A DNA stretch of 64,000 bases from Humulus lupulus (taxonomy: Eukaryota; Streptophyta; Magnoliopsida; Rosales; Cannabaceae): positions 104,983,970 through 105,047,969 of the forward strand of contig NC_084798.1 in NCBI RefSeq assembly GCF_963169125.1, read 5' to 3'. Both the position numbers and the translations under genes were made by a program. The notes beneath the pieces are model-generated. The model saw nothing but the letters and a program-made list of their open reading frames with translations. It was not told the origin of the DNA and made no database searches. Within the stretch, counting starts at the first letter, position 1; every line of letters begins with the position of its first letter. Shown here one piece after another: positions 17,614 to 42,424 of this stretch.

Positions 17614-18010
17614 CACTACAAGAAAAAATACTTTCAATAAGACTGAAAAAGTATTATTAAATATATACCATAACACTTTTTGATGTGTTAAGGAAAGCGG
17701 TGTTATAGTTGGTTTGAGCACTTTGCATAACACTTTTTCATAGTTATAGACATGGGTTGTGGTATAGCCTACGATAACACTTTTGTTGTGTTATTTTAAT
17801 AGTTAGATAAGTTTTTCATTATGTTATTTATAAATAGATTATATAACACTTTTTCATACTTATAAAGTAGTGTTATGATACACTTTATAATAACACACTT
17901 TCTGCATTATAGAAAATAGTTTGCATTACATAATTTTATGCTTATAAACTAGTGTTATTGTAAAAGATACAATAACACATTTTTTTGTATTATTCATATA
18001 TTTGGATAAG
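17614..18010. repeat. CACTA left terminus and subterminal repeats
   Basis: The terminus is followed by at least seven copies, in both orientations, of an ATAACACTTTT/AAGTGTTAT-like motif (for example 17668, 17728, 17773, 17839, 17885 and inverse GTGTTAT at 17700, 17868, 17951). Such arrays bind transposase in En/Spm elements. Confidence 0.8.
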
Positions 18011-18892
18011 CTTGAATTATTATTATATAAACCTGTACATTATAATTATTTTTAATTGCTTTAATTCAAACCCGCTTTATTTAATAAACTTAAGACACCC
18101 TTAACATTGTACAAATATATTTTTCAGTACCAATTATATAGTACATAACATATATAACCAAATAATTGTGTCAAAATACATTCAAGATTATCTAAAAGAC
18201 AATCCAAAAGTCTTAAGATATTCAACATTTCCTAATTAACATAAACAAAACATTCTCACAGTAGTCAACAAAATAGTCGTAAACAGTTGCATATTCAAAA
18301 GTAAAGGTAGGAATTCATGATCTTCCAAATGTCGGCACACCAAAGCCTTCCAAATCATATTTTCTTTTGCACTTCACTTGTTGAATCTGGTAAATAAAAC
18401 TTACAAGAAAAACTAATGAGGTCATGAAATATCATATCATTCATCTAAAATAGTCAATAATATCATGACACGACCAACTTTACAATAATTGAGTTTGAAT
18501 AATAATGAAATTATTATATTACACACATTACTATAACTATCTATACTCAAGTGACCTTAGAACTTTAATTAAATGGTGCATAATATTAATTCAAATTAGC
18601 CACATTATCATTTTGTCTTTCTCATCTTCCCTATCAAATTAATCAAATAATACTATCATAATCTTGGATTGCATGTCGGTTAATGGTGAACAAGCATTTA
18701 TATAATCAAATAACCAAATAAATACCTCTCGAAATAACCTTTTGAGAAGGTCATACAATTGTTGAACCAACAACTTCTCGTATATTTTGTAAATGCATCC
18801 TCATCTGTATTATCAAACCACAGGCCAACTTATTGCTTTACACAAAACACTTCCCAAAAACAAAGGCAAAGGGTTGTGTATGCAGCTGACTC
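18011..18892. other. CACTA interior, no gene seen
   Basis: AT-rich sequence between the subterminal repeats and the UPS 3' end. It may include the 3' untranslated region of the captured UPS gene, since the UPS stop codon lies at 18893-18895 on the minus strand. Nothing else is recognisable. Confidence 0.4.
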
Positions 18893-20329
18893 CTACTTTC
18901 GATGCCCTGATGATGCCATAAGAACAACAACAACCACAATAAACATAGAAAACATACTTACTAGCAATATATATGTTCTTCTTGATGATTTTCTGTATTC
19001 TCCAAACAAAAGAATTCCCCAGAAAGTGCTTACTAGTGGAAGTGCCTGCCAATCATCACCCCAAAAAAGTCTATATTAGTATGTGATGCACATTTTGGTT
19101 CAGTTGAAATTTTGCACAAACAAGTTTATCCAACAAAAGAGAAGTTTGGAATCAAGACAAAAAAATATATTTGAACCAACCTAAACAGCATCTGCTACAG
19201 CATACCCTGCAGCTTGGCCTCCCATGAATTGGAGACCATTGCCAAACCCGCAGAGCAAACCGGCCATTAAGGCCCAGCCTCTGCCATTCTATTCATTCAT
19301 ATAAGCCTTGAATAATGATTTGGGTTAGTCCAACACAGGGTAGTAAAGGAATGTGATGTTGAGGATTATAGCAAGGACAAAAAAAGATATTGAGAAGTAA
19401 AAGAATGCAGTGTAAACAACCAAGTGAGGAACCCCGTCTTTCAATGTATGCCATTGATCATTTGTTGCCAAGTTGAATGCTGGTGAGAATAGAGAAAAGC
19501 GAACACCAGCAAAGAAACATATGGACAGTCCAATGAGAGTGATTTTCTCAAACACCTGTAGCAAGAGTTATAATTATTAATTGTGATAGAGAATCTGAGA
19601 TGTTTGGATTTGAATGTCAGGTGATGAACCTCCAAATATTGTTGTGTAGTATTTTTGCAACACAAGATTATCATTTTTCATCTAAATGTGAGAATTTTAA
19701 TTGATTTTCCATACTAAAAATTATTGCCTCTTACAGTGCCATATATAGTGGTACAACTAGTTTTCTGCTCATTCTCATTATCCTTAAGTGAACCATCAAA
19801 CAAAACAATTTAAGTAAAAATTGCATCACTCAACAAGCTCGATGATTTTCTTTTTAGAAATGAATAAAAACCAGATGATTCTTAGATAACCTTAACATTT
19901 AATGAACGAAACATACCCTTCTTTAGATGAAAAACCTTCAAGCTTTTCTTTATTATCAGTTGCATTAGATGAGTGGACAGCACAAGCAAGGCAAACTACA
20001 ACCAAGAAGCAGCCAATGCCATGGAAAAGGATCTCAGCTCTATTAATTCTATCGTCTAAAAAGTAATTCAAGGTTGTTCCTGTCACCATTAAAGATCGTA
20101 ACAGAAGCAAAAAATTCAGTATCTATAAGAGCAACACAGACAAACATCAACATTTAGAAATGGTCAGAGAGAGAGAACGAAAGAAAGGACCTATAACAAC
20201 TGTTATGCTTGCAGTGATCACTTCTGTGACTGACAAGCCAACAAAAGCCCAAGCATACCGAGTTGGGAGATTTCCAAGGCTAAGTACCACCCCTCCTGCC
20301 ATTACAAACATCACAGAAGGCCAATTATC
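18893..20329 (-). pseudogene. UPS: Captured ureide permease (UPS) fragment, four exons
   Basis: Plant ureide permeases are membrane proteins of about 400 residues that import allantoin and uracil. Minus-strand exons with GT/AG borders are visible: 20329-20191 (DNWPSVMFVMAGGVVLSLGN, VGLSVTEVITASITVVI), 20079-19917 (GTTLNYFLDDRINRAE, VHSSNATDN), 19555-19181 (FSLFSPAFNLATNDQWHTLK, FGNGLQFMGGQAAGY) and 19045-18893 (ALPLVSTFWGILLFGEYR, VLMASSGHRK, stop). The last exon runs to the natural C-terminus. Phases agree across the first junction (VI|G). Exon 3 has a frameshift after YYPVL, a TAG in the middle (tag for Trp) and a TAG at its end where Gln is expected. The first ~80 residues are absent. Exon structure means it came from genomic DNA, not mRNA. 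Confidence 0.88.
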
Positions 20330-21923
20330 CTGCACCAATCACCCTAACATGAATCAAAACCAAATACATACAATACAATACAACTCCATTATGGCAAACA
20401 GATGAAATTTTGATTATGTTGTGTTCCTTATCACTGGTCTCTCAAACAGCACCACATTCATCAGAGAGAATAGAGAATGAATGAACTAAACTTTATCCAA
20501 ATATATGCAAGTGTTGAATATTTGTGATTCAACACTTGTAATGAGCTAAAAAATACAATCAATACTGAACTAATCATGAGAAGGAGCAGCCAAAAGAATT
20601 ATAAAAAAAAGAGGGAAAACAAAAAACAATGGATTCTAGACACGTCTCGTAATAATTAGACATTTTTATTAAACTTCATGGAGACAAGACTATCACAATA
20701 AAATTGTCTAGCAATATTTTTATCTCATTTTCTTATCATTACCAATATAATAAAATATAAGCTTTTGTAACTATTCTCTCCAAAAGCACCACATTCTTTT
20801 CATGTTCTTCAGTATTATTTAAAATAACAAAAAACAAATAGTAAAATATTTTAAAGAGTTAGTTCTAACTTTTAGCTTATAGCTTCTATAACCTCTGCTA
20901 AATTGATTTTCAGCTCTATTAAGGTAAAAAAAAAAAAAGAGGAACAGAAGCTTCTGTTTTGGAGGTAATCTCTGAAAATTACAGAGGCCAAAAAAATATG
21001 ACAGAAGCCTTTGGCATGCCTTATTAATCAATGGTGGTCATTATCGAGATGGTATCATCATAGGAAGGAGCACCATCACACTGTACTACATGGTATTATC
21101 AGCATTCCTTTGTGATTAAATAATAGCATTTCACACTTCCAAACATGCCCCCTGTGTGATCGCTGCCATCACACACACATAAGAGTACTTAAGAGAAAAT
21201 GAATTGGATAAAATAATCTCTGTAAATCTACCAGAGATATGAGACTTTATTATTTATAGTTGAATAGTACAAAGATATAAAGAGAGGGAAAAAGGAGCTG
21301 GAAACCAAGAAGTGATTAACAGAAAACTAACCACACTAATCAACTAACTATAGCTGAACCTATATTACAGTTAGAGCTAACTAACTACATGTGCTAAAAC
21401 TTAAGCCCAAGCAAAACAAGAAAAACCACCCATTTTGTTGGGATATTTAAGCCATAGCAAACAATCAAAGTGACTCCTGACTTAAAGGGTGGTGATAAAC
21501 CATTTTGCAGACAGAGATCATCCTATGCCTATGACGATTCTCTTTCACTATCAAATGGTCGGGCTACCGATTCTTTGATGTCATTGTCGAATCCAATGGT
21601 GCTTGTTCAGCAATGACAATGGTCATGGAGGGACCTGTAGTGGGGGACTTCCTAAACTAAAGTGATAACTTAACACTAACTTAACTTAACATACAAGGTC
21701 AAATCAGAGAACACAAACAAACAAAAAAATCAAGAACAACACCATAAGAGGGCAATCTTTTTCAATAATCAAATTGTTCAAGTCTGAAACCACAAAGATA
21801 AATATTTTAAAAAATGAAAATGGGAAAGGAGTTCAAATCCATTACAGTTGTACAGGGGCAAATATATCTAGCATTTTATCTTAAGTTATAGAATATATGT
21901 ACCTTTATGCATGAGTTTTATAA
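20330..21923. other. CACTA interior, no gene assigned
   Basis: About 1.6 kb of AT-rich DNA. A short A-run (20930) and a T-rich stretch are present. 21520-21660 is less AT-rich and could be one more captured exon, but I cannot match it to a family. The 5' exons expected for UPS are not seen here. Confidence 0.4.
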
Positions 21924-21928
21924 TTGAG
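21924..21928. repeat. Tat element target duplication, left (TTGAG)
   Basis: TTGAG immediately precedes TGTTTACCGAG. An identical TTGAG at 36114-36118 follows GGATAACA. This fixes the outer borders of the nested Tat element despite its rearranged LTRs. Confidence 0.88.
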
Positions 21929-22679
21929 TGTTTACCGAGTTTTTCGGAAACGAATACAAATAAAATAATAAAAAGATAAGAACTGTAGAAGTGCAGAAAT
22001 ATAAATAGACAAATAGGTTTTTTACGTGGTTCAGGCGTTAACGAGCCCTAGTCCACGAGTCGATGTTATTATACTTGTAGAGAATTACAGTAAAATGGCT
22101 GGTGTACAAGAACCTCACAAACTCACAGTGTTTCTCTCGAGTTCTCTAGAAGAAGACGAAGCTAGAGAGATTTTGGCAGAGTTCTTCCTATGTCATCTCT
22201 TCTTTTTTTTCTCTCCTATTGCAAAATGAGGAGGTCTTTATAGCTAGAGTTTTGGATTAGGGTTTTACTCTGCCCCCATGAGTCTTAATTACACCAGCCA
22301 TAAATAGGGGATACAATTACCGTAGTCTCCTGGCTACCAGGTTCTATGTGGGTATATTTACATGAAAGTATGGGGAATGTAAAAAGGCAGCTGTCTTTTC
22401 CAGGCTGTCAGCGGAACAGTAGGCGAGAAGGTACTTTTAGGCGTGCTGGGATGTGTGCGGCCTCGACCTGTCGGGCGTGTCAGGCGGGATCCTGTGTCAG
22501 GTGAGTATCATTCCAACTATGCCTCCTCCATGACTTGACCGCTTGGTCTTCTTCCGTGCGAGGCACGGAACTGTATCCGCGAAGATACAGAGTATTTGTC
22601 TATTTATATTTCTGCACTTCTACAGTTCTTATCTTTTTATTATTTTATTTGTATTCGTTTCCGAAAAACTCGGTAAACA
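21929..22679. mobile_element. Left composite LTR (U5 ends in inverted repeat)
   Basis: 21929-22015 and 22593-22679 are perfect 87-bp inverted repeats (TGTTTACCGAGTTTTTCGGA ... and its complement). The right copy is the normal U5 end before the primer-binding site. From 21929 to about 22588 the sequence is the reverse complement of an LTR, including a minus-strand TATA box and the hairpin TTCCGTGCGAGGCACGGAA (22552-22570). The junction near 22583-22592 lies beside a CTGTATC/GATACAG microhairpin. Confidence 0.85.
22236..22242 (-). promoter_or_regulatory. TATA box of the inverted LTR segment
   Basis: The minus strand reads AGCTATAAAGACC. In the restored LTR order this would lie upstream of the U5 part. 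In the present arrangement it points leftward, out of the element and towards the captured UPS fragment. Confidence 0.55.
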
Positions 22680-22682
22680 TTT

Positions 22683-22701
22683 TGGTGCTTTCATTGAGAG
22701 C
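22683..22701 (+). promoter_or_regulatory. Primer-binding site
   Basis: TGGTGCTTTCATTGAGAGC starts 4 bases after the LTR end. The same 19 bases (one mismatch in one case) follow two other Tat LTRs here, at 63348 and, on the minus strand, 46262-46244. It is not the initiator-Met tRNA complement common in other LTR elements. I cannot name the tRNA. Confidence 0.7.
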
Positions 22702-22744
22702 TGTAGGGAGTTGTTAGTCAGCTCTTTTTCTGCGTACTGAAAAG

Positions 22745-23718
22745 ATGGTGACTACGAGAAAATCCGCGGTTGACAAGAATGCTAGGGTCAACCCCGATAC
22801 TATGATGGAAGATGCGGTACAAAACGAACCCTCGGCAGCCCAGACCGAAGGAGAAAGTACCCACGACTCGGACTACCAAGGTGAAGACCCGACATCCCGC
22901 CAGGATCGGGTCAGTACTGAAGATACGACATACTTAGAAAACGAAGAAGAGTATGTCCGAGACAGTTACTACAAAGACGGCTACTACTACGAGAAGGATC
23001 CAGAACTGGTCCAAGTAGCCAAAGAACTGGTGGCCACTAAGGCCAAGCTCGCTGAGCAGGAGCGCGTCTCCGGAAAAATGCAGCGCATGATGGAGCGCCT
23101 CCAAAGTAAGTTCGGAGATCTAGGCGACTCGGACGAGGACGCCTCTGTTTTAGGTGGTGCTGATGCCACCATGCCGGATCCCGCCGCTGCTGGACCATCC
23201 AAAGCCGCCCCTAACAAGGGCAAAGAAAAAGTTGGGGAGCCTGTGCGCACTAACGCCCCTGCACCTCCTAAAGGCGTGAATCAACAGGCCGATTGCCCCC
23301 CCCCCCTCGCGCGCAGAAGGCCTCTGGCGCTTCTAAGCCCAGACGTCCTTCAGCCCCAAGGGGGCACTCTGTGCCTAAAGGGCCTGGTGCTAAGGCACCC
23401 AGGCCTAGGGGAAGGAACAACCGCCCCAGTGATTCCATCAACCAGGACGGTCGGGCTGCGGACACGCACTCCGAAGATTGCTGGTCCACGGTGGACCTAA
23501 GGAAAAGATTGGAGGCCAAGTACAAAAAGGCCAAAGGAGAAAAGGCCCGGCCTCGCGGAGATGACCTGCGAAATCATCTCAACGACAAGCTCCGGGGACG
23601 TGACCTCCCGGAGAGCGATACAAAGAGGCTCGAGGAACAGATCGCTGCCTTGACCAAGCTGGTCCGGAAGCAAAGTGGGGCCCTGTCAGACTCTGAGGAA
23701 GAAGACCCGGAACCATGA
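22745..23718 (+). pseudogene. gag: Tat gag, N-terminal region
   Basis: The ATG at 22745 opens MVTTRKSAVDKNARVNPDTM, matching the start style of other Tat gags here (MVVTRSM.. at 46200). It encodes an acidic, Pro/Ala/Lys-rich region with a coiled-coil stretch (LVATKAKLAEQERVSGKMQR). A run of 11 C at 23296-23306 marks the switch from frame 2 to frame 1; the protein continues as [16 protein letters not shown]. The frame-1 part runs to a TGA at 23716-23718, after which the same frame reads on into the gag core. The C-run suggests slippage; whether biological or assembly error cannot be told from sequence. Confidence 0.8.
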
Positions 23719-25180
23719 ATTCGGAGGATCGCGGAAACGCCCCTCCCGGAGAACTTCAAAATGCCTCACATAGAATTATATGAGGGGAGGACAGACCAGC
23801 GCACCCATCTAGCTAAATACAACAAGATGATGCAAGTGGCGCGCGTCAGTGAGGATGCCAAATGCATGTGCTTCTCACTCACCCTTACCAAGTCCGCGGA
23901 AGACTGGTGGAAAAAATTAGCTCCCGGATCCATCCACAGTTGGAAGGAGCTACAGTCTGCATTCAGGAGGCAGTTCATTGCTGCCCGGGACCACGACATG
24001 GAGGTTGGTTCCTTAACCAACATCAAGCAGCTACCCAATGAGAGCCTCAAAGCTTTCATTCAAAGAATGATGGAAGCTGCTGCTAAGACCAAGGTCAGCG
24101 ATGACATGAAGCTGATCGCCCTTCAATCGGGGCTTGCCGTCGGCTCCCTGCTATGGGGAGAAATGCAAAGGAGGCGAGCAGAAACTCTGTCCAAATTCAT
24201 ATCAAAAGCTCAAGGAATCATCAACCTTGAAGATGCCTACCAACAGGCCTTTGGAGTTCCCCCAGCTCCGACGACCTCCGTGACTGCACCGAGCTTTGCT
24301 TTGCAAGCTCCCGTGCCAGCCCTCACGCTTCCAGGAGCCCAGGTCACTCCAAGCGTGTATGGACCTTCCGCGTCTGCTCAGACGCCGAGTCAAACCCATT
24401 TCTCTGGGTACGGAGCTGTACCAACCGGATGTAGTATCGCTCCCAGCCTGTCGCAACCGCAAGCGGAAGGCCCAGAACAAAATCTGAGCCAATCGCGGAA
24501 TAAACGAGGCGGAAGAAACTCCAACCGGGGGGACCATTCAAAGAAACCCCGGAAGAACTATGAGCCCAAGTTCACGGAGTACACCAGTTTGATAGACTCG
24601 CGAGAGAACGTCTATCGGGCGACCTGTAATATGGCCAACTACCGGAAGCCCCCGAAAGTGTCTCACGGAGGAAGGCGTCCGCGAGACTCCAATAAGAGGT
24701 GTGAGTTCCACGGAGACGTGGGGCACACCACAAACGAATGCCTTCAGCTGAAGGATGAGATCGAGTCCCTGGCAAGAACGGGACACCTCGGTCAATGGGT
24801 GAGGATACCCATAATCTATCCCGGACAGGGAGTAGTTCACGGAGCTGCGTACTCTCCGGGACAGAGGGGGACCGCTAGCGCTCCTGGAGCCGGTCACCCC
24901 CAAGCTCCTGGATCTCAGTTCCCAGCACTTCCTGCTCCGACCTCTCCGGCACCCATTGCCATGTTGACTCCAGGACCCAGAAAACCTTATCCGCCTAGCC
25001 TTGCTCCGCCACCCGTTGACGGACACGTGGTCACCATTTCCGGAGGACCGCACCTTGCCGGAAGCTCCCGCAACTCCCAGAAAAGGTACTTGAGGGAGTT
25101 AGAACACACCGGGGAGATGTGCGCCTTGGTTCAGTCACCTGCTCAGCGTCCCCGATTGATGGATCTTCCCATCACCTTCA
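23719..25180 (+). pseudogene. gag: Tat gag, capsid core and zinc-finger-like region
   Basis: Frame 1 encodes the retrotransposon gag domain: [60 protein letters not shown] and [15 protein letters not shown] (about 23761-24080). A Pro/Ala/Gln-rich linker follows, then [14 protein letters not shown] (about 24699-24742), a CX..H..H..C motif in place of a standard zinc knuckle. The GGPHLAGSS block near 25045 precedes protease, as in the remnant at 2-229. The frame stays open from 23719 through RT to 26667, which indicates a single Gag-Pol frame. Confidence 0.93.
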
Positions 25181-25640
25181 CGGAAGATGACGCCCGACAT
25201 GTGCATTTCCCCCACAACGATCCCCTCGTCGTGGAAGCCCAGATCGCCAATAAGAAGGTGTCACAGATCCTAGTCGATAATGGAAGCTCCGTCAACATCC
25301 TCTTCAAAGCTGCCTTCCACGCGATCGGATTAACCGAGACAGATCTGATCCCATGCCCCATCCAGCTTCAGTGGTTCAATGGGGATGCACTCATGCCCTT
25401 AGGAAAAATTCAACTTCCAGTCACCCTCAGAGGAGACAGCGACGCTTGTGCCTTCAAGCACTGCACATTCGTGGTGGTCGACTGCCCCACGGCGTATAAT
25501 GCCATCCTAGGCCGATCGGTCCTAATCGATGTTGGGGCCATAACCTCGATACGCCACTTATGCTTGAAGTTTCCATGCGACAACGGGCGCATCAGCACTC
25601 TCCGGGGAGACCAACGAAGTGCACGAAGCTGTTATAACGT
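25181..25640 (+). pseudogene. pol: Tat aspartic protease
   Basis: The active site [13 protein letters not shown] lies at about 25267-25305. DNGSS in place of DSGAS/DTGAT is the usual Tat form. The second part has [18 protein letters not shown], the conserved ILGR end of the fold. In frame with gag and RT. This module itself shows no stop. Confidence 0.92.
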
Positions 25641-26763
25641 CTCCGTCCGATCCGTCTACACGGTCCAGGAGGCGATTGTTGCCACACCTTTGGCAGAGGA
25701 TTTACCAGAGACTGGGGGTGCCCAAGGGGCATACGTTGATGAACTCGACCCTAGAGTGGGGGTCGAGAGGGCGATAGAGCCGATGGAGAAAGTCGAAGAG
25801 GTGATCCTCAACTTGGAAGATCCCACCAAAGTCATTCAGGTGGGGAAAAACCTTCCATCGGCCATTCGAGAAAAGATCGTGGCCACTGTGAAGAATAATC
25901 AGGATATCCTGGCATGGTGCCACGCTGATATGACGGGGATTAATCCTAATGTTGCGTGCCACACACTCAACATAGACCCATCTGCAACTCCAGTTCGCCA
26001 AAAGAGGAGGCCGTTAGACCCAGTAAGGGCCGAAGCAGTCAAAGCTGAAGTGGACAAGCTGATGTCCATAGGCTTTCTCCAGGAGTCACTCTATCCCGTG
26101 TGGTTGGCCAACCCGGTTCTGGTCCCAAAACCCGATGGATCCTGGAGAATGTGTATTGACTTCACGGACCTGAACAAAGCCTGCCCAAAAGACTGTTTCC
26201 CTCTTCCTCGAATCGATCAGATGGTAGACGCTACTTCCGGGTATGAACTCTTATCCTTCATGGATGCATACTCCGGATACAACCAGATCAAGATGCATGT
26301 CGCGGACCAGGTACACACCAGCTTCCTCACGGACAAGGGTGTCTACTGTTACGTGGTCATGCCATTCAGTTTGAAGAATGCTGGGGCGACATACCAGCGT
26401 CTAGTAAACAAGATGTTCAAGGATCAGCTGGGGAGGAACATGGAGGTGTATGTAGACGATATGTTGGTGAAATCCAAGACCTCCGGGGACCACAGTGACG
26501 ACCTTGAGGAGGCTTTCGCCGTGATCCGAAAGTACGGAATGAAACTGAATCTGAAGAAATGTACTTTCGGGGTCTCGTCTGGGAAGTTCCTCGGTTTCAT
26601 TGTCAGCTCCCGCGGAGTGGAGGCCAACCCTGAGAAAATTAAAGCGTTCATAGATATGCCTTCTCCCTGAAAGCATAAGGATGTCCAAAGCGTTACCGGA
26701 AGGATAGCTGCTCTCAGCCGCTTCGTATCTAAGGCCACTGACAAATGTGTCCCCTTCTTCAAT
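25641..26763 (+). pseudogene. pol: Tat reverse transcriptase
   Basis: Motifs in order: [71 protein letters not shown], and the catalytic box [13 protein letters not shown] (about 26440-26472), then [22 protein letters not shown] keeps both aspartates. A TGA at 26668-26670 follows DMPSP. Relatives carry Arg there, so CGA to TGA. The frame then continues through a thumb-like GRIAALSRFVSKATDKC. Confidence 0.94.
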
Positions 26764-27690
26764 GTGTTGCGAGGAAACAAGAGGTTCGAGTGGACCCCCG
26801 AATGCGAAGCAGCCTTCCAACACCTCAAGGAACATCTAACTCGAGCTCCCATTCTATCCAAACCTGTCGAAGGAGAGGCGTTGTTCTTGTACTTAGCTGT
26901 GACAAAGCATGCCGTAAGTGCCACTCTCGTCCGGGAAGACGGCCATCTCCAACTCCCTGTGTATTATGTGAGCAAGAGGTTACTGGACGCCGAGTCCAGA
27001 TATACAATGATCGAAAAACTCTCCCTCTGCTTGCTAATCGCTTCGCGGAAGCTAAGGCCCTATTTCCAAGCGCACACCATTAGAGTACTCACCAACCACC
27101 CTCTCCGGCAAGTCCTGCAGAAGCCTGAGTCTTCTGGCAGATTACTTAAATGGGCCATGGAACTGAGCCAGTTTGACATCCACTACCAGCCACGTGTTTC
27201 CATAAAAGGTCAAGCTCTCGCGAACTTTATTGTGGAATGCTCAGGAATGAATGACCTCCCGGAAGATCCTGTCCCGGAACTTCCCACATGGAAAGTCTAT
27301 GTAGACGGAGCCTCAAATGAAAAAGGAGCTGGAGCAGGGGTTATCCTAATTTCTCCCCAAGGACATCAGCTCCAGAGCGCCATCCATTTCGCGTTCCCAG
27401 CATCCAACAACGAGGCAGAACACAAAGCCATGCTAGCTGGATTACAACTGGCCAGAGAAGTCGGAGCCCAAAAAATCGAAGTATACAGCGACTCCCTACT
27501 TGTGGTAAACCAAATATCCGGAGAATACCAGACGAAAGGCGAAAAAATGGTTGCTTACGTGTCTCTCTCCCGCGGCCTCCTGTAGCATTTCAAAGGCTAC
27601 CAAATCCGCCAGGTCCCCCGGGACCAGAATTCACTCGCGGACACACTGGCCAAGCTTGCAACAGACCCGGAGATTGAACAATATGGCCTA
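26764..27690 (+). pseudogene. pol: Tat RNase H plus second (aRNH-type) RNase H
   Basis: The first RNase H region has LFLYLAVTKHAVSATLVRE, YYVSKRLLDAESRYTMIEKL and LKWAMELSQFDIHYQPR. A second RNase H follows: KVYVDGASNEKGAGAGVIL (first Asp), NNEAEHKAMLAGLQLA (Glu) and KIEVYSDSLLVVNQI (Asp), with a final ADTLAKLA Asp block after a stop. A second, archaeal-type RNase H between RNase H and integrase is a known trait of the Tat/Ogre lineage. TAG at 27583-27585 replaces Gln (CAG to TAG) before HFKGYQIRQV. The frame is unchanged on both sides. Confidence 0.92.
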
Positions 27691-30513: not shown

Positions 30514-33500
30514 TCAAGCACTGGGGGTGGCAGCGGCTTCCACGACCGGGGTCTCGGAGATAGCGATTTCAACTGGGGCTGGCGGAGTCAGCTCATTGGA
30601 AGATGGAACGTCATCAATGGCAAGTTCAGAGGTCCCCGCCTCTTCGGGATCTTCTGCCTCAGGGACTCCAGCAGGCTCGTCGATGTTATAAGTCTGGACG
30701 TACACCTCTGGGCTTTGATCCCACGCCTGTATCTTTTCCCTCATGGCGGCAGCGTCCTCTCCCAGGTAGCCTACTACCTCCGGGTTTATTTTCCAAAGTT
30801 GGTGCATGAGGACCACGCGAGATAGATTAATCATTTTATTCAGCACCACCTCGGCATCTTCCTTCTCCTTCAAGTGCTCTGCCTCAGAGGTCGCCAGCTT
30901 TGCCTCCGCGACAGCCAATTGAGCCCTCAGTTTTTCCAGCTCGGCCTTGGATGCATCCCGCTCTCCCTTAAGGGAATCAATCTCCTTGCGTTGCACCTTA
31001 TTTTTATCCAGCAAGGATTGCTTCTCAGTCACATGTCCCCTAATAGTGAATTACAAAGCTCCAATCTGTTTATCCTTCTCAGCGAGTCCCAACTCCTGCA
31101 TAGACGCGAGATCCTTGCTCCTCTTGTGATCTTGCTCCTCCTCGTACAGATTATTCTAAAGAATGGCGTATTCCTCGTTCTGCTTAAGGAGGAGATTGTT
31201 TTTCAATTGCAAGCGGGCATCCAGGGTGTCCTTCTCCCCCCTGGCCTGGGATAGCTCTTCCTGGAGCTTGGAGTTCTTGGCCTTCAAGTCATCCGACCGC
31301 TACTTGAACTCATTCTCCGCGCTGGCCCGGTACTCTTGATATTTGGCAAGATATTTCTTGTCCGCCTCTTCTTCAGCCGTGCGCCGGGCCTGGTTAATCT
31401 TCTCCACAGCCTCCCCCTTTATGCTCTCGACCTGTTGAGTCAGTTTCTGCTTCTCCGCCTCCAAGGCCTGGCGAGCCACCTGGCTCTCCTCCAGCTGAAC
31501 CAGAACTGCACCCACCTCCCGGAACGAGCGTTCCGCGATGAGAGAGGCCTGCGAGGAAAGACAACAGAATGAGTTAAGCAGAACCAAATGTACTAAGACA
31601 ATTGATCTCAGAACATAACAACTGACAGCTTACCCCAGAAAGTTGCTGCTTTACGGCATGTGTCAGCAACAGCGGGTCCTTACTGCTACTGATGGCCCAT
31701 TTCTCAGAATTGAGCTCGCACAAGCTCAGGGCCATGTCCTCCATCATCTCCGCTCCGAACGGCGCCAATGCACGTCCGAGCCTAGGCACCAGCCTCTTCT
31801 CCAAGGCTGGGCCATCCAAAACCGCTCCAGCCGGGTGAAGGGATCTCACCCCCTCTGCCAGCTCAGCTCTCTTCACGGTAGACAGGTTGTCTGCCCTTCC
31901 CTGAGTAACAGCCTTCTCGGCCTCCAACCGCCTCTTCAAAAAATTATCAGCCCATCTTACACCCTCCAGGAGGGCAGCGGGGAAACGGGTTGGTTTCTGA
32001 GGGAAGTGGAACTTCAGGCCAGGCTGAGGAAGGCTTGTTTGTTGAGAAAGTGGAAGAGAAGAAGAAGAAGGAGACCCCGAAAGGGTGGACTCCCTTTGGA
32101 CTGGAGGAGGAAGTAGATGGGGTATTAGGGACGGTAGCGAAGACACTACCGCCCCGGTTTGTTGTTGCTGCTGATGTTGCTGTTGCTTTTGCTGCTGCTG
32201 TGGCTGTGTAGATTGTCTTTGTGGTTGTTGTTGTTGTTGCTGTTGCTTTTGCTGTTGGAGTTGTGTTTGCTGCTGGGTGGTGGTAGTCTGGTGGGGACTG
32301 CGTGCAGCCCGGAGGTCTCCATCACCTCCGGGAGAAGAATGTCTAAGGCGTTTCTTCTTTTTGCCCTCAGCCTCTCCTCCGGGGCGCTTGCTCACCCCGG
32401 CCTTCTTCGCGGGGAACACAAGACCTTCCCCATCGCTGCTACTGCTCGAGACCACCATGTTCTCGGAAGGCCCCTTGACAGGAGGCTTCTCCACCACGGG
32501 CATGATTGACCTCTCCACCACCGGAGACCCTTGCGCCTCGCCACTTGTCTTCTTGGGTGTGGCAGATTTACCTCCCCTACCAGCTCCGGCCTTTCGTCTT
32601 TTCCCCTTGGATGGGTCTTGGCTGGTGGCGGCCTTCTTGATAAGTGAGGTAGATCTCCCCAACATCTTTGCTTCAGGATGTTCTGTAAGAAATGTACGAA
32701 GCAAGGTTAACCAATCGGCAAGTAATGTGAAAAAAGATAAGCAAAAAACAAAACAAGCAACAACATAAGACACAAACAAGTCCACCAGCAGGGAACAAGA
32801 AACAAAAAAGAAAAAAGTTTGAAAGGGACGACCATGCACGAGAAACGTGGATGGCCTTCCCCGAGCAAAACAAGACACCGCTTCCTGCTCCAGGAAGCTC
32901 CCGTACTCCTTGAAGTCTGGGAATGACATGCTGAGGGAAGAAGGATCAACAATGGTGACACCTTCTGGCAGACTACCGTCACTCAAACACCCGAGGAGCT
33001 CATCTACCCTATCGCAATATCTGTCAAAGGGTATCCTACGCGGATCTAGCCTAAGGAAGCGGGGATCGAACCCCACCTGAGAAGTCCGGGAAACCTCAGA
33101 CAGGCTGGGGGTGTGGATCAATCGAAAACTAGTCTTATCTCTCCCGGAGGTACCAGCTCCCGGAGTCCCTTCATTGGGATAAGCTGCAGCGTGGCGAGCC
33201 TCGATTTCTTCTTCCTCCGACTGGGGGTCAGGGAACCTCTCCTCCCAACTGGGGGATAAATTATTCTCGTCCTGGGCCACCTGGCAGATCACCTTGGATA
33301 GCTTCAGGGCAATCTGCTCCCGGACGTCAGCTGACACCTGACTTTGCCCCCTGCCACTCACTGGCTCAATATTTTGGAAAGAGGCAAGTAGCCTATACTC
33401 CCTCAAAGATTTAGTGGTCACAAGTCCTTCCACCTTCAGCTCTTCCTCCGAGAGCCCCTCGTAGAAGTTTGACCTCCTTATCATCTCCGCACAGCGAGGT

Positions 33501-34295
33501 GTCCGCGGGACGGCTTCTGTAAAATCCAAACGCGAGTGTTAGAGATCCTCCCGAAAGGCAAACCAAACGTAAAGAAACAAAGTTAAAAAAGAGAGGAAGG
33601 AGCACTTACCAGGGACTTTGAAGTCCAAAGATAGAGCTGACACCCTCTTCAATGGGAAGCCAGTCGTCAAGAACCAGTACTCCCGGAGATCTGGAACCCT
33701 CGCGGTATGACATGTGGGGCACATCACGTCCGGATACCTCTCCAGCCTATAAAACCCCACTTTGTCTGCATGACCTCTCATGGGCTGAGACTTCAGCCCA
33801 TAGAAGTATAGCACCTCCTCTGGGGTAGGGGCCTCCAGGTTCCTGGACTTGCAAAAGATATACCACCCCGCTAGAAGCTTGTAGCTGGGGGGAATCAACT
33901 GGAAGGGAGCAATCCCCGCCTTCACGCAGAAGTTGGCAAAATAACTTCTTAGGGGCAAGTGTGCCCCACACACTATGTGTGCCCAACTCTAGGCACCAAA
34001 ACCCTCGTGACTCTGACTGGCAGACTCACCCAGCACCGACAGGCGGTGCCACATCAGGCCTGGGATGTTCTTCAGACCTGCCTCTGAGGAATACAGCTCC
34101 AACATGCCGTAGTTCCTAAGCAGGTTCGGCTTCTGGTCCATCTCCCAGATGGAACTGTTGATAGTCGGTGGGCTAGCCGAGGCCACCTTAGTTTTTGCTT
34201 TCCCCTTTGCGCCGGCAACAGGGGAACCTTGCTCCTGGGCAGATTCAGCCTCTACCACAGCGATGACTTGTTCCTTTGAGGTGCTCGTCACTGAG
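30514..34295 (-). pseudogene. Antisense intron-containing gene of the Tat element
   Basis: A minus-strand gene lies between pol and the 3' LTR. Visible exons: about 34295-33610, 33516-31634 and 31548-30514. Intron 33609-33517 has GTAAGT...TTTTACAG, and phase is kept (P-G|E-A-V-P). Intron 31633-31549 has GTAAGC...CTCGCAG. A further acceptor TTTCTTACAG near 32681 suggests another intron at about 32830-32681. Exon 1 encodes AHLPLRSYFANFCVKAGIAP, FQLIPPSYKLLAGWYIFCKS and a CPTCH motif. This resembles the plant 'putative gypsy type transposon' domain (Pfam Transposase_28). Exon 2 has a Gln-rich tract (about 32160-32280). The last exon is a coiled coil (SLKGERDASKAELEKLRAQL). In-frame stops near 33986, 31300, 31155 and 31050 break it. 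Function unknown; Grande/Ogre-type elements also carry antisense or extra ORFs. Confidence 0.78.
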
Positions 34296-35500
34296 CAAAA
34301 GAAACAAAGAAGAAAACACTCCAAGCAGTCAGCACCCTTGCCATACCCTAACGGTATTAAAGGCGTCGGAGAGACCCTCCCCGAAAACTGCTTGGAGAGG
34401 CTCCCACCGAGCTTGCCGAGGGGCTGGCACCATGCCACCCGGAGGACAGCAAGGAACCAGATTCAAACTTCGAGCCTAAGCCCGCCGAGAGAAGTGTTTT
34501 CCCAGGGGAAGACACCCTAAAGGCGTTCACGCTTATGCCCTAAAATAACAAACCAGAATTACACAAGCAGACGAGAAACAACTTTCCAAAAGCAAATCGT
34601 CAAAGCATGCAAAGAAATGACTTATTGACTCGCATCAGTCACATGCCTATCGAAGCCCTATTCACGCATGCATAAAGATGACACCGGCTAAAAACTCAAC
34701 CCTAACAACTACCAACAATCTGAGGTTTAGAAGGAAAAAGCAAAGTAAAAATACTTACTGGTATTCGAGTAGTTGAAGATTGATGGAGTAACCGGGTCAC
34801 TACACCGCACGAACGCGTGAAGTAAAGGCTGCAAAGACAAGCAATGATTCAAACCTAGAACTTTGGCGATCAAACCTACTGCCTAATCGAAAGAAAAGTT
34901 TCTGGATTCCTTACCAAAAGAAGTGGCGAATTCGAAGGAAAGGAAGCTTGGAAGCTTGAGAGTTCGAAGATTTGGGAATCTGAGAATCTGAAAGCTCGAG
35001 AATTTGAAAGCGTAAAGAGGAAGAAAGGTCAGTTCCCTCGTTTTTATAGCAAGAACAAAATCGTTTCGAATTCCACAAATGGACGGTCCTGATCTTCCCA
35101 TACCGCATGCATCAAATCCAACGGTTGGGGATGAAGCGCCGGTCCCATTTAAGACTCCTCGGATGGGAATAAAGTATTTATTTCCCATCGTTATACCATC
35201 TCGGGCCCAGTGCACCATTAAATACCGTCAAATCACTACTCAGACGCCTGACGCACGTACACTCAGCCAGTCTCCTCACGCACAGGTCTTGGTCACAGAG
35301 CCATTCCCTGCATGACGCGTGGCCCTTGCCACACTTGAGTACTTGAGTTCAAACAGAAGAAATTTCCTTTTTTTTGTACTGACACTCAGGAGGGAAAAAG
35401 GAACCCTTCCAGGAACGCAGGAGGTGACCCCTCGCCTAATCTAGAGACCAGAACACTCGGAGGACTATACAAGCTCCCGGACCTCTCAAGCCCCGTGACC
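34296..35500 (+). other. Region between antisense gene 5' end and PPT
   Basis: No protein gene I can support. It should hold the promoter and 5' leader of the antisense gene: the minus strand has TTTTGCTCAG near 34296 as a probable acceptor, so an upstream exon may exist near 34440-34900. Short repeats of a GAA..CTTG..AG kind occur at 34930-35000. Confidence 0.45.
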
Positions 35501-35512
35501 TTGGGGGGTAAA
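35501..35512 (+). promoter_or_regulatory. Tat polypurine tract
   Basis: TTGGGGGGTAAA immediately before the LTR start TGTTATCC at 35513. Same arrangement as 2204-2219. Confidence 0.88.
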
Positions 35513-36113
35513 TGTTATCCAGATTTCCGGATAGCGTTTAGATGGATAGCCTCGGGGAACCAGAATTATCAAAGTCTTTCACGATAGGAGACCAGAGCTC
35601 GCGGATGGACAGAAAGGCTCCGCCTCTCCCGTTTAGTGTCCAGCATACTCTTTCCAGCAATCGCGACCGAGAAGGGATATCCTTCGGGGAAGGTCCTTCC
35701 AGGAGAAGCTCTTCGGGTTATCTTCGCGGATACAGTTCCGTGCCTCGCACGGAAGAAGACCAAGCGGTCGAGTCATGGAGGAGGCATAGTTGGAATGATA
35801 CTCACCTGACACAGGATCCCGCCTGACACGCCCGACAGGTCTTCTTCCGTGCGAGGCACGAAACTGTATCCGTGAAGATAACCCGAAGAGCTTTTCCTAG
35901 AAGGACCTTCCCCGAAGGATATCCCTTCGGGATTCCGGGAGAATTGACGAGCTTCTGGGTCGCGATTGCTGGAAAGAGTATGCTGGACACTAAACGGGAG
36001 AGGCGGAGCCTTTCTGTCCATCCACGAGCTCTGGTCTCCTATCGTGAAAGACTTTGATAATTCTTGTTCCCCGAGGCTATCCATCTAAACGCTATCCGGA
36101 AATCTGGATAACA
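35513..36113. mobile_element. Right composite LTR, near-perfect 250-bp palindrome
   Basis: 35513 onward starts TGTTATCCAGATTTCCGG. Reading back from 36113 on the minus strand gives the same start, and the two match almost base for base over about 250 bp. One difference is about 28 extra bases in the right arm (35925-35952 region). A loop of about 80 bp (35764-35842) contains GACACAGGATCCCGCCTGAC, which matches 22485-22510 of the left LTR in inverse orientation. The right arm is an LTR U3 start pointing left. A transcript through it would fold into a long hairpin. Confidence 0.88.
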
Positions 36114-36118
36114 TTGAG
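36114..36118. repeat. Tat element target duplication, right (TTGAG)
   Basis: TTGAG directly after GGATAACA, identical to 21924-21928. Confidence 0.88.
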
Positions 36119-37267: not shown

Positions 37268-37395
37268 CAGAACTGGTAGCTTCATCTTTTGGTTCGAGAG
37301 CGTCAGAGGCCAAAGGTGAAGAAACTCGGCGTATTTATGAGCTCCCTCGTTTGTCTTGTCAAGCTGCAAGACCAAAGGTCGCCTCGTCATGATCC
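37268..37395 (-). pseudogene. DRP1: Captured dynamin-related protein (DRP1-like) exon
   Basis: After an acceptor TCTGCAG, the minus strand encodes GIMTRRPLVLQLDKTNEGAH and KYAEFLHL. This is the P-loop-proximal GTPase segment of plant DRP1 proteins, whose usual form is GIVTRRPLVLQL followed a few residues on by EYAEFLHL. DRP1 proteins act in membrane fission at the cell plate and in endocytosis. After EFLHL the match to DRP1 stops. The next bases read plausibly in another frame (ASDALEPKDEATSSG), so the exon seems to be fused to sequence from a different source before the donor GTAGTC at 37267. The P-loop itself is not present here. Confidence 0.75.
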
Positions 37396-38546
37396 CTGCA
37401 GATTTTCCAATCCAAATTCCATTATATATCCTTGCTAAAACAAAATAGTAAATAAGAAGAAAAAAGATACAAGAAAATTAAACGATAAAAATAGTAAATT
37501 AGAAAAAAAAACAAATACCTCACAAAATTGTTCTTTCTTCAGCTGGGATTAAATAAAGAGCATGGCCATGTATTTATATAGACTTTCTACTATCACTCTA
37601 TAAAACAGAGCATAATTTGAGTAAGTTGATTGAAAAGAGCAAAAGATATACAACAATTAAACCTACCCATTTGAACCATATTACATATAACTAATGTTAA
37701 AACTTACCAAACTAGAGAAATCAAACTTAAATCCTTATTACACATAACTACATAATGGTAGAACTTAAGTTTATTGCAGTATTTCTTGATACTAGATATG
37801 ATAATCAATTAGTGAACCTTAATCAGTAACATCAGCTGCAAAAATAGCTTAAGAAAAACTTGTTAAGAGCTTACAAAGAGATTCGAAATGTGGTCTTTCA
37901 TTGTATCAAATAAGCAGCATTATCCTTTTCCACAAATATTCAAATAAGTAGCTATATTTTAGGCACAACTTTAGGACATTCATAAACAAAACGAATCAGA
38001 TTGGCATGGAATACTTGAATGTTTAACATGTCTTTATAAATTATAGTATACTTTATAATAATACTTTTTCGGTATTATATAAAGTAGTTTACATAATACA
38101 ATTTTATACTTATAAGTTAAAAGAAAAAAAAAATACAATACCACAAACACTAGTTGATAATTAATACCTTGGCCAAGCTTAAACTTGAAAGGAATCCTCT
38201 ATAATGGCTGGAATTGAACTTAGTCCCATTAAGCAAAGTTTCAGTGTAATGAGGCGCTACACTAGCAGAAGGGGACATAAGTTAACTTTATAAATCCTTG
38301 TCAAGCTTCAACATCATAATAATGATGTTTTAAACAACATCATAGACTTGGCAAATTTTTTGCACAACTGAAAAGAATCAATGAATATAAAACCATAGAA
38401 CCAGTTTCCATTGTACATACTTAGAACTTAGAAGGATAAATTTAATATGACATGACATTTATACAATTAACCAAAGATTAATAGTGATGGCCAGTCTCCA
38501 CCTAGTGACCATGTAAAAGATACAAATCTGAAAACATAATACATAC
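37396..38546. other. CACTA interior with a second subterminal-like block
   Basis: AT-rich with no coding match. 38035-38140 (ACTTTATAATAATACTTTTT, then TTATATAAAGTAGTTTACAT) is a diverged direct copy of 17875-17960 in the left subterminal region. This suggests an internal duplication or a nested CACTA end. Confidence 0.5.
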
Positions 38547-39794
38547 CACGGTTTGCAATTTCTGTATCTCAGCAGCCTGACCAGTGAATCTAGCGAATAG
38601 AGTTTCACACTCTTTCACCTGATGCACAAAAGTCATCACAAGCCCAATGATAACATCCAATAATTTCACCACATGAAAAACATGCTCACCTTCCTGTCAA
38701 GAATGCTAGAAAGAAATTGCACATCAGCCCTCAAAGAATGAACATCTGAAGCAGTTTCTTTATGTTTTCGCAATTGGTCTTGCATGTTTTCCATTTCCAC
38801 AGGAAAGGAAGACACCAAGGCTTTAAATTCTGCAATGATTTCTTTTCTTCCTTAAATAATAATTCTTCCATCAGAATTAAAGAATAAAGAGAGGCATTGG
38901 CTTGCAATAAAGCTTCAGGTTTCTTCTAACCAGGTTCTCTTGAAGCATCTTCCACCTTTGTTTCAGTCATCTTTCTCTCATCGTACTGCTTCTATATTTC
39001 TATCCTAAGATCTGAAATCTTTGAATTCTCAATTGCAGCAGACAAAGGAAATCAATGACATCACTTTTAACACTGAGTTCCCTTTCCTTTAAGACAAGAA
39101 TATCCTTCTCAGCCTACAATCTCCAATGAAAACATTATTGTTAGCATCAGAATGACTTCTTAGCAAAAAATGGTAGATAAAAGGCATAAATAAACTACCG
39201 ACCAGTTACAACCTGAAGTTTCTCATACGAAGCCTGATACTCAATAACTTCAGATTTTGATTTTTCTATTTGATCTCTCACTAAGAGGTAGGCTTGGGAA
39301 GAGGAAATACATGCTACATTCTTCAATTTGCTCTATCCATTTGTGAGAAGAGTTACAATTAGTGAAATGATATTTTAAAGTAATAAAACCAGCACATACA
39401 AAAGACTAGTTATACATTAAATTGACCTGCAAATTAGATAATTGCTGCAATATATGTACTCTCTCTTCATGAAGACCTTTTATTTCTTCAAGCCGGCAAG
39501 AAGCTTGATCCTGCAGAGCTCAAATCAGTTAGAATGGATTACCCTCTACGAAAGATTAATTTACAAAGGTAAGTGTTCGAAAGAAAGGTAATTACACTAC
39601 CATTAATTCTTTAAGAGTAGTCTCCATATCTTGTATATCCTTTACTTTATCTTTGACTTTGTCACTACTAACATGCTTGTTCCCTAAATTTAAGACAAGA
39701 AAGCCTGCCACTTTTGCGGCATCTCTCCGAGCTTTGAGAATCGCTAGTTTGCAATTACTCTCTTCTAGTTAAGCAACTCTATTTTGTAACTCCC
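38547..39794 (-). pseudogene. HUB: Captured HUB/BRE1-like E3 ligase fragment, six exons
   Basis: HUB1/HUB2 are plant RING E3 ligases that monoubiquitinate histone H2B; this piece is from their long coiled-coil middle and has no RING. Minus-strand exons: 39794-39601 (LEESNCKLAILKARRDAAKV, LGNKHVSSDKVKDK), 39510-39427 (DQASCRLEEIKGLHEERVHI), about 39333-39213 (ACISSSQAYLLVRDQIEKSK), 39113 to about 38865 (AEKDILVLKERELSVKSDV, then frameshifted), about 38860-38691 (GRKEIIAEFKALVSSFPVEM, SDVHSLRADVQFLSSILDRK) and 38618-38547 (VKECETLFARFTGQAAEIQK). Most borders keep GT/AG. Exon 4 has stops and a shift. Exons keep genomic order. Confidence 0.82.
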
Positions 39795-40386
39795 CTTCAT
39801 AAAACCAATGCACATAACATTAGCTTCACTAAACATTCAGTTATCCTCCAAGACAATGAAAACTATAAACAACTAAACAAAAATTCTCCATATTTCAGCA
39901 AGAGAAAACCAACCCTTCAACTTATTCCATTGTATCCATTTATGAAGAACTTTAAAATACAACAATGTTCACTTGAAATTAGCTTTTGTTTCAAACTTCA
40001 GTTACATCAACTTATCAAGTGACCAAAAGATTCCCTAAATTACTATAAATTATGATCATTCGAAAGTTCTAATGTATTACATGAAGGATTTGAAGTTGAG
40101 GTTCCTATGAGTACCAATATGGAAGCATATTCATTAAAAAGGAAAAGATAATATACTAATCTGGCACTTCATTTTTAGACCAAGTTACAAATACCAAATT
40201 GCTTCTCACAGATTGGCCAACCAACACGAGTGGGTGCTGCCCCAACTTAAAACCAGAGTAGTAATACTTTTCTTCTTTTAGCTGGACAATAACAATGGAC
40301 TCCTTGGGGCCTATATAAAGTTATCAGAGGTAAGAAAATAAATTTAACTGTTTTTAGTACGAGACTAATGAAGATGTACAAGTTAC
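39795..40386. other. Junction between HUB and KUP fragments
   Basis: AT-rich, no coding match. Minus-strand intron-like sequence follows the KUP donor at 40386, with no next KUP exon. Minus-strand 40386-40247 stays open by chance as read-through of the intron. Confidence 0.4.
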
Positions 40387-41629
40387 CTAATGCATTTCCC
40401 ATGTGTTTAGTGTCTCTAAATCCAATTTTTACAGCAATGCAAAGGATCATGAGAATCCAATTGATCTCTGGAATATATATCTGAACATGAATCTTGTCAG
40501 AAGTGTGAACGACCTTGACCCTTGGGAAGCAACCAATCGACTGGCTTTGGTTTATGATAGAAAATGTTCCATTGATGATTGCTTGGCTTCCAACAACTGA
40601 AGCAAGAATAGCTACAACAAGAACTGGCCACCTTACGCATTCTACATTCAAAAAAATTTATAGACATCATATCTTTCGTAATGAGTACTTATACCAGTCA
40701 CTTTTCACAACAGAAGTTTGAAATAATAATATTAAAGAATGAGATGTGAAGTTTAATTTTCTTTAACATCATCTATCGAATGCTAGGAGAATCTGGTGAA
40801 TCCTAGTTTTAATTTATTTCAACTTGTCAAAGCTGGCCCAACTAGAAATTAAACAACAATACTTCATACAAAAGGGAAGAATGGCCTTTACCAGGAACTA
40901 AGACATAAAAACTGATACTATGTTTGGAGTGGTGATGATGTGATAAATAAGCAGCTTCGCCCATGTATGCCAAAATAAGTGCTGGATAAACCAGAAAGGT
41001 GAAAGCAATCTGCGGTAGGAAAATACATTGGGAGTTGAAATTTGCTTGTTAGATTAGACATCCACTGAAAATGAGATTAAAACAAGATAAAGTACTGTTA
41101 TAATGATGTTAAAAGTTACCTGAATGGCCGCATATGAGAAGTGTCCAAGATCAGCAAACATAGCCTCTGAGCCTGCAAAAGCACACGTATTCATTAGTGG
41201 CATATAATAACACATAAAAATCTGACAACAGCTTATGTCTTAATAAAGGTCATTCATAACTTATCAAACATGCAAAAAAAAAAAAATTACAAAGAGCTCT
41301 GTTTTCTTTCCTAAGAAAAATGACTCAAAATATTATGTGTGTTCTCCTATTTTACCTGTTATGCACAGTAATATTCCACCTAAAGACATTCATCCACTTA
41401 TCCTTCTCTTCTTCAAGAACTTGAACATGTAATATGGGGAAATAGCTTGAATAAAAAACACAATCCAGACCCAACCCACGATTCCGCAAAAGTGAGACCT
41501 CACACAAACCACATTAGATAAGAAAAAAATCCATATTCGATAGAGAAACTTACCAAGTGCGAGCCCTGAACCCAAGTCGTCGTCCACAGCGTGCCGAGGT
41601 GAAGAAGAAGAAGAAGAAGCCATCGTCAC
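40387..41629 (-). pseudogene. KUP: Captured KUP/HAK/KT potassium transporter fragment with chimeric first exon
   Basis: KUP proteins are plasma- or vacuolar-membrane K+ transporters of about 780 residues. Minus-strand exons with GT/AG borders: 41629-41554 (MTMASSSSSSPRHAVDDDLG, not KUP-like), 41445-41356 (ISPYYMFKFLKKRRISG, stop, MSLGGILLCIT), 41172-41120 (SEAMFADLGHFSYAAIQ), 41009-40892 ([20 protein letters not shown]) and 40641-40387 (RWPVLVVAILASVVGSQAII, FSIINQSQSIGCFPRVKVVH, YIPEINWILMILCIAV). Phases agree at all four junctions. The only nonsense codon is a TGA where Trp is expected in exon 2. This is roughly the central fifth of the protein (a few membrane segments), so it cannot transport. 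The Ser-rich first exon appears to come from another gene. Confidence 0.87.
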
Positions 41630-42014
41630 TATCGGACCCTGTGAAGACCCACTATGCGTCGAGGAGGAGAAGGATTCATCATCACCAAATCTTTTGGTTG
41701 TAAGTTAATTGAAAAAACTAAAAAAGTATAATGAATGGAGGTATGGATGGAAAAAAGATGATAAATGGTATAAATTACAAAGAGTAAAAAAACTTGGAGC
41801 ATCAAATTCTCAGACTTAAATCAATTAAAAATGATTATAGATGATAAAGACTTGTAGAAATGTTCATTAATAAACAATAAGAGAGAATGAGACGTTTGGC
41901 AACAGTAGTTTTTAGGCAGCCACCGTTGTGAAGTCCATGATGATTGACGCTTGCCTTGAGTAGACCCATCGCTTATTGGAGTAATTTGGTCTGTCACTGA
42001 CTGTAAAAGTTTGT
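41630..42014. other. Junction between KUP chimera and DCD fragment
   Basis: 41640-41700 on the minus strand (GDDESFSSSTHSGSSQGP) may be part of the chimeric first exon or its leader. The rest is AT-rich and unassigned. Confidence 0.35.
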
Positions 42015-42255
42015 TGCTTTGTTTTTGTGCCCTCATTCGGATTTGATTTGGGAACTCTTGTTCCCAAGAAAATGAAGAAATTACAAGAAGAAGAAGAAGA
42101 AAAATGTGGTTTCATATTCATGTGCAATGGCTCAACCAAACCCCAATGCTGTCTTTACTGTGTTTTCGGGCTACTCATGGTGCAACAAGAAGTTGTCCTT
42201 CAGGATCAAACCGGGTGCCAAGCTTTTTCTTTATGACTTTCGCGCAATAAAGATA
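42015..42255 (+). pseudogene. Captured DCD-domain fragment
   Basis: The plus strand encodes GFIFMCNGSTKPQC, then after a one-base shift near 42200, RIKPGAKLFLYDFRAIKIY. Together these match the DCD (development and cell death) domain, with its FMCNS.TKP.C start and KPG.KLFLYDFDL core. It is the only captured piece on the plus strand. It covers about half of the domain. The remainder runs into the CACTA right end. Confidence 0.68.
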
Positions 42256-42299
42256 TATGTTTTAAGACCATTTTAATTTTCAGTTTCAATTTCCCTCTA

Positions 42300-42424
42300 A
42301 TTAAATTCACTACCCACCTCTTACACTATAGCACATTATATGTCCCATTTTTTTAACTAGCTTTTATAATACTTTTTCAATAGTCTTATAACCTGTGTTG
42401 TGAAAAGTTGTTTTTCTTGTAGGG
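42300..42424. repeat. CACTA right subterminal region and terminus
   Basis: Contains ATAATACTTTTTCAATAGTC (42367), the inverse of the block near 17635-17660, and ends TTTTTCTTGTAGGGG. The last bases differ from the canonical TAGTG by one T to G change, which could weaken excision. Confidence 0.8.

Follow-up and report, generated by a model that had tools for sequence, protein, structure and literature searches.

A non-autonomous CACTA transposon of hop with pieces of five unrelated genes, probably assembled stepwise

The element described here lies in a 64-kb stretch of chromosome 6 of hop, Humulus lupulus; the whole of this stretch is called the window, and positions are counted along it. It runs from 17614 to 42424 and is very probably a non-autonomous CACTA (EnSpm) transposon of the Pack-CACTA kind, with pieces of genes for a ureide permease (UPS), a dynamin-related protein (DRP1), a HUB/BRE1-like protein, a K+ transporter (KUP) and a protein with a development and cell death (DCD) domain, put together stepwise and carried as passive cargo. 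Features are collected in Table 1.

The termini are of CACTA type. At 17614 the left end begins CACTACAAGAAAAA; from 42424 inward the right end reads CCCTACAAGAAAAA. One mismatch separates them within the first 14 bases, and a 3-bp direct duplication, GTA, stands immediately outside both. In the 64 kb there are just two occurrences of the 12-mer CTACAAGAAAAA or its complement, one at each end of the element. The subterminal motif is present in 12 copies in the left 400 bases, where shuffled sequence has a mean of 0.55 and none of 300 shuffles reaches 12. The element sits in a retrotransposon: retrotransposon sequence matches both flanks, 16785-17502 and 42458-43209, and runs without a break in a diverged relative (L004), where the joint can be placed only approximately. 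An unplaced contig of 53.6 kb (C91) repeats window 15535-64000 at 99.98%, and because of this match it is taken as a haplotype or assembly duplicate of the same locus and not as a second insertion.

The original prediction, made from the letters of the window, treated 17614-42424 as one cargo-bearing element. Its ends and its family hold, but over half of the span is a younger Ty3/gypsy long terminal repeat (LTR) retrotransposon, and a single gene-rich element of 24.8 kb is ruled out, since 14.2 kb of it is this nested insertion. From 23.7 to 28.5 kb there are frames for gag, aspartyl protease (a weak match, 16.9 bits against 24.3), reverse transcriptase, two RNase H domains and integrase, in the order gag, protease, reverse transcriptase, RNase H, integrase. 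A copy of the CACTA element on chromosome 9 (C27) has unbroken sequence with one TTGAG at the same point. The TTGAG on both sides of the insertion and the empty site in C27 together put the CACTA element proper at about 10.6 kb.

Every piece of cargo is on the minus strand except DCD, which is on the plus strand; read right to left, the order on the minus strand is a short exon, KUP, HUB, DRP1 and UPS. For UPS, four frames were scanned and gave PF07168 at 80-129 bits, and KUP gave PF02705 at 110 bits. DRP1 was named from DRP1A in PDB 3t34 (E 2.7e-7 over 41 residues); the Pfam scan of that frame returned no family, and the identity comes from the PDB match alone. A 253-aa HUB query joined from exons is 63-64% identical to plant BRE1-like 1 proteins over its whole length, and the same peptide has no match in PDB. 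The DCD piece matched PF10539 in one frame at 25.8 bits and in a second at 14.5 bits, short of the cut-off of 27.8 in each case. These Pfam, PDB and protein matches bear out the five genes that had been named from the letters, as the termini and the GTA duplication do the ends. Introns are retained in the UPS, HUB and KUP pieces, so the source was genomic DNA. That part of the prediction stands; the exons are not simply open, however, three stops being found in UPS.

Related copies are numerous in the genome. The first 397 bases of the element were used as a query, and in all of the best 40 of 1213 candidates the left terminus is 94-100% identical. Twenty loci were fetched, namely the window itself, its duplicate C91 and 18 others. 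In each of the 18 the alignment starts within 8 bases of 17614, with different sequence immediately outside; this applies to left ends only. The UPS piece adjoins the left arm in four of them (L003, L005, L011 and L018). Five copies were read further (C27, C3, C28m, C7 and C28b), and all but C28b contain the UPS piece. C27 has nearly the cargo of the window: it holds 17614-41699 and 42162-42393 without the nested retrotransposon, and two insertions peculiar to it, which fall at 20666 and 36374 of the window. Its identity to the window is 95.6, 96.1, 96.8 and 96.0% in four blocks up to 41699, and 95.9% overall in 9824 aligned bases. At substitution rates of 1.3e-8 to 6.5e-9, the Kimura two-parameter distance of 0.042 corresponds to about 1.6-3.2 million years. 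With the same cargo on chromosome 9 and an intact UPS relative annotated on chromosome 3, the possibility that these are resident genes of chromosome 6 is rejected. Neither outcome that the prediction had named as refuting it was seen in the hop assembly: elements with the left terminus are present elsewhere, and the only likely donor found lies on another chromosome.

The other copies are more varied. The C7 copy is about 4.2 kb long, with UPS as its sole recognised cargo; C28b departs from the window sequence at 18783, and the C3 copy has its own 3-bp duplication, GGA. Extra cargo of about 3.3 kb, 94-96% alike and absent from the window, is common to the elements C3 and C28m (L033:3777-7790; L036, C28m 4594-7842). 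No gene was recognised in it by eye among the listed reading frames of the C3 copy.

The limits of homology in these copies suggest how the cargo was brought together. Two lineages, one with UPS and the other with HUB and KUP, seem to have fused near 38267 to give the window element. In C3 and C28m the UPS piece is followed by the 3.3 kb of other cargo and then by window sequence from 37578, as far as 37767 in C3 and 38270 in C28m, where the homology of C28m to the window stops. From the other side, the match of L046 (chromosome 1) to the window starts at 38267 and extends at least as far as 41286, and homology starts at 38278 in L044 and at 38319 in L047; to the left of 38267-38319 these three loci differ from one another and from the window. 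The C28m limit at 38270 and the L046 start at 38267 thus place the proposed fusion near 38267, where the two sides share AGAA. An internal copy of the left subterminal repeat (38041-38115, 75 bp, 80% to 17873-17947) looks like the fossil of an inner CACTA end, such as the neighbouring-insertion model of gene capture would leave (PMC8903248, PMC13317346; these and the other papers named below are cited for the passages drawn on).

It is unlikely that one ancestral element took all the fragments at once and that the copies with a subset are its deletion derivatives. The two copies with near-full cargo are indeed uniformly diverged, and internal deletions are common: some HUB copies are without about query 53-482, and C28m and C3 without about window 18660-18750. 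Yet beyond the break L046, L044 and L047 hold different sequence and not a simple gap, and the 3.3 kb common to C28m and C3 is absent from the window.

Nothing in the UPS or KUP-HUB comparisons, made on few sites, points to selection for protein function. One UPS exon of the window has three in-frame stops, which rules out the UPS exons as intact open frames. The same exon is stop-free in one frame in C27, C28m and C7 (in C7 with a frame shift near the exon start) and is frameshifted in C3; other UPS exons are damaged in C27 and C28m. The HUB piece of the window contains stops and its KUP piece a frame shift, and in C27 KUP and HUB contain one stop each. The four KUP-HUB exon stretches compared are stop-free in L046 and L047. 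Among five copies (ten pairs) the identity of UPS exons is 93.3-95.3% and that of the introns 93.7-96.7%. For the KUP-HUB exons of four copies, the ratio of non-synonymous to synonymous change (dN/dS) is 0.46, 0.77, 0.82, 1.10, 1.11 and 1.44 in the six pairs, small-number values that come from 5.5-11 synonymous changes per pair with stop codons left out.

Several hop gene models match the cargo. These were placed by tblastn against nine sequences. P0170 ('ureide permease 1-like', chromosome 5) has its best match in the C7 element, with the first exon at 100%. P0004 (LOC133817850), a KUP-HUB model, fits L046 on chromosome 1 best (KUP exons 99-100%), and the KUP-HUB model P0009 (BRE1-like 'isoform X2') fits L047 on chromosome 5 (KUP exon 99%). 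P0018, in which KUP exons are combined with probable transposon exons, and P0007 fit by chromosome only. P0007, on chromosome 6 of hop, combines HUB exons with part of a protein kinase (PF00069, 48 bits); this is probably a further captured combination. All five are database predictions. The matches suggest that several hop database 'genes' (a ureide permease, two BRE1-like proteins and a potassium transporter) are transposon cargo, which affects hop gene counts and gene family studies.

These models, with the stop-free stretches of L046 and L047, are what can be said for the idea that some fragments are working chimeric genes under selection and the transposon their vehicle. Its chances are slim. 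The stops and frame shifts of the window and C27 tell against it, as do dN/dS values near 1 on few sites (0.77-1.11 in four of six pairs, with extremes of 0.46 and 1.44), UPS exons that are no better conserved than the introns, and the predicted status of the models. Slightly fainter is the prospect that the composite lineage acts as an exon-shuffling system, repeatedly placing KUP exons before HUB and before the 3' exons of the element itself, with stable new KUP-HUB or KUP-transposon proteins at some loci. Passive cargo without a selected function is most likely.

A number of observations weigh against a stepwise-built CACTA element, or at least against parts of that description. The one mismatch of the right end falls in the CACTA word itself (CCC for CAC). 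The right end has a single copy of the subterminal motif, a count reached by 24 of 300 shuffles of the last 130 bases and 30 of 300 of the last 400; since this is not above chance, the right end is the weak side of the element. Elsewhere, right ends are truncated or degenerate in C27, C7 and C28b, and that of C28m was not found. The 3-bp duplication was not seen in four of the five other copies read (C27, C7, C28b, C28m). C27 is without the final 31 bp and without 41700-42161, so that an element complete in its two ends and its five fragments has been observed once only, C91 being the same locus. Fourteen of the 18 other loci leave the homology of the window between 18349 and 18784. The mosaic could also come from replacements within one ancestral element, and some of the HUB or KUP places listed below may be donor genes and not element cargo. 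None of the transposases scored in the genome was tied to these termini, among the matches listed. That the two ends are unrelated and flank a gene-rich stretch by chance would suit the weak, atypical right end, but is scarcely credible with GTA on both sides, both flanks aligning to a retrotransposon contiguous in L004, and the same stretch on another chromosome (C27) from the same left end to 31 bp short of the right end, less 41700-42161.

A likely donor was found for one fragment only. The best full-length match of the UPS piece is P0134, an intact hop UPS1-like protein of 397 residues annotated on chromosome 3, and among the five fragments this is the only likely donor found. The joined UPS peptide of the window is 93% identical to P0134 and is without its first ~76 residues and ~40 internal residues. 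P0134 is matched at 97% identity by P0135 of hemp, which is thus nearer to it than the captured piece is; decay after capture would fit, yet there is room for another donor.

HUB and KUP pieces are dispersed more widely. The genome search with HUB (best 40 of 53 candidates, 58 rows; the window counted and the duplicate contig left out) gave 39 distinct places among the matches listed, 10 of which hold only ~238 bases. With KUP (best 40 of 116 candidates, 45 rows; pieces of ~390 bp or more, the window counted) there were 19 distinct places among the matches listed. HUB and KUP occur together at five places among those matches, on chromosomes 6 (the window), 9, 1, 2 and 5. An additional KUP gene, with exons in order and 74-89% identity, is found at C3:10843720-10845119. 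At seven other KUP places, query parts ending at ~1223-1276 and starting at ~1219-1269 are separated by 0.86-2.8 kb of sequence that is absent from the window (40180-41640) and from C27.

The element may also retain traces of a gene of its own. In P0018, the chromosome 4 model mentioned above, a MASSSSS.. exon is followed by KUP exons, then by a middle part that was not recognised, and last by a tail. This tail has matches in the left arms of the window element and of all five other copies read, and is probably the 3' end of the CACTA element's own gene, which might at a guess be TNPA-like. In the remnant of the preceding exon a stop stands at the position of a W in P0018. An earlier piece of P0018 was found by tblastn in C28b (87.5%) and C27 (80%) only, and a Pfam scan of the middle gave no match. 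No transposase (TNP2, PF02992) was recognised among the listed frames of the element, a subset of which was run against Pfam; its absence had likewise been noted from the letters. Candidates are plentiful elsewhere in hop: the best 150 of 8572 were scored for PF02992 and all 150 are over the cut-off, most of them in open frames of more than 500 aa.

These features can be fitted into a sequence of events. The element would be mobilised in trans by CACTA transposases that the hop genome supplies, and genomic copies of gene pieces, introns included, would be captured. The cargo was probably gathered stepwise, in an order of captures that we infer from the copies: one lineage, which carries the UPS piece, would have amplified, and the pieces of HUB and KUP would have multiplied in other contexts. 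The composite would then have arisen when neighbouring elements fused, as the mosaic junction near 38267 and the internal subterminal fossil suggest. The composite would have transposed at least once thereafter, giving the chromosome 9 copy, which is 95.9% identical throughout. The cargo would be passive baggage, possibly spliced into chimeric transcripts.

An element of this kind, Tgm-Express1 of soybean, was reportedly first described in 2005. It is a 5.7-kb CACTA element at the wp locus that holds exon and intron sequence from five unrelated genes of its host (UP, CDC2, FPK, M and CS); it sits in an intron of a gene, and chimeric transcripts were detected by reverse-transcription PCR (PMC1947982). 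Both are CACTA elements with pieces of five host genes, exons and introns together, and hence copied from genomic DNA. The hop element differs in its length (~10.6 kb without the nested retrotransposon), its site in a retrotransposon, its genes, and its relatives with overlapping cargo. Pack-TYPE elements grow by fusion of neighbouring insertions (AB-type), and Pack-CACTA of maize are reported to hold the most distinct loci (PMC8903248); from the latter, the number of genes in the hop element is to be expected. The hop element resembles them in being non-autonomous, with the terminal inverted repeats of its family and genic pieces from several loci, and the composite is larger than the PIF and Mariner examples, which average about 310-535 bp (PMC8903248). 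The CACTA-like 'Jozin' elements of Chenopodium likewise have captured gene fragments near one end, but are described together with the transposase domains of the element, of which none was seen in hop (PMC8978399).

The titles and abstract openings listed by searches of an open-access library mention neither CACTA gene capture in hop nor a CACTA element loaded with these genes. The five-gene load had been proposed as new. As far as this literature search shows, what is new is the set of genes and the composite hop family, and the kind is already known; 'new' is limited to the set because Tgm-Express1 already has fragments of five host genes. The hop family offers a series of related elements that display capture, fusion and loss step by step, and may serve as a test bed for the neighbouring-insertion model.

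Table 1. Features of the element and its insertion site (window positions)
Feature	Position	Strand	Basis
GTA target duplication, left copy	17611..17613	no strand	matches 42425-42427
Left CACTA terminus and subterminal repeats (ATAACAC/ATAATAC type)	17614..18010	+	genome matches, boundary in other loci, motif count
Remnant of probable own gene, last exon (..VKCKRKYDLEGFGVPTFGRS)	18318..18386	-	P0018 tail match, 82.6%
Remnant of preceding exon, same probable gene (..NIREVVGSTIV*PSQKVI)	18734..18840	-	by-eye match to P0018
UPS (ureide permease) fragment with introns	18896..20338	-	~residues 77-180 and 221-397 of P0134
TTGAG target duplication, left	21924..21928	no strand	single TTGAG in empty chromosome 9 copy
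Ty3/gypsy LTR retrotransposon, later insertion, not cargo	21929..36113	+	domains, 5-bp duplication, absence from C27
LTR regions of nested retrotransposon	21929-22679 and 35513-36113		
TTGAG target duplication, right	36114..36118	no strand	pairs with 21924-21928
DRP1 (dynamin-related) exon fragment	37313..37435	-	PDB 3t34 match
Module common to UPS-lineage C28m and (to 37767) C3	37578..38270	no strand	alignment
Inferred fusion point of UPS and HUB-KUP lineages	38267..38270	no strand	homology limits of copies
HUB/BRE1-like fragment with introns	38544..39795	-	joined-exon peptide match
KUP (K+ transporter) fragment with introns, frame shift near 40310	40189..41215	-	PF02705
Short first exon MASSSSSSPRHAVDDDLGSGLALG (MASSSS..)	41549..41623	-	joined to KUP in hop model P0018
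DCD domain fragment, frame-shifted	42105..42258	+	PF10539 in two frames
Right CACTA terminus	42295..42424	-	inward reading; weaker relatives in C3, C7, C28b
GTA target duplication, right copy	42425..42427	no strand	matches 17611-17613

The nested retrotransposon has some peculiarities of its own. Beyond the integrase there are two antisense frames, 31574-33538 (654 aa) and 33539-33988 (149 aa), both on the minus strand, and a Pfam scan of them gave no family above the cut-off. The two LTR regions are mutually unlike, and each starts and finishes in inverted repeats (21929-22015 against 22593-22679, 87 nt, 100%; 35504-35674 against 35952-36122, 96%). A 123-nt part is common to both regions in inverted orientation only, and the outer LTR halves form one stretch in C28m (24030-24919). 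It looks as if the interior of the retrotransposon was inverted between its LTRs, and this would have happened after insertion, because the TTGAG duplication is intact.

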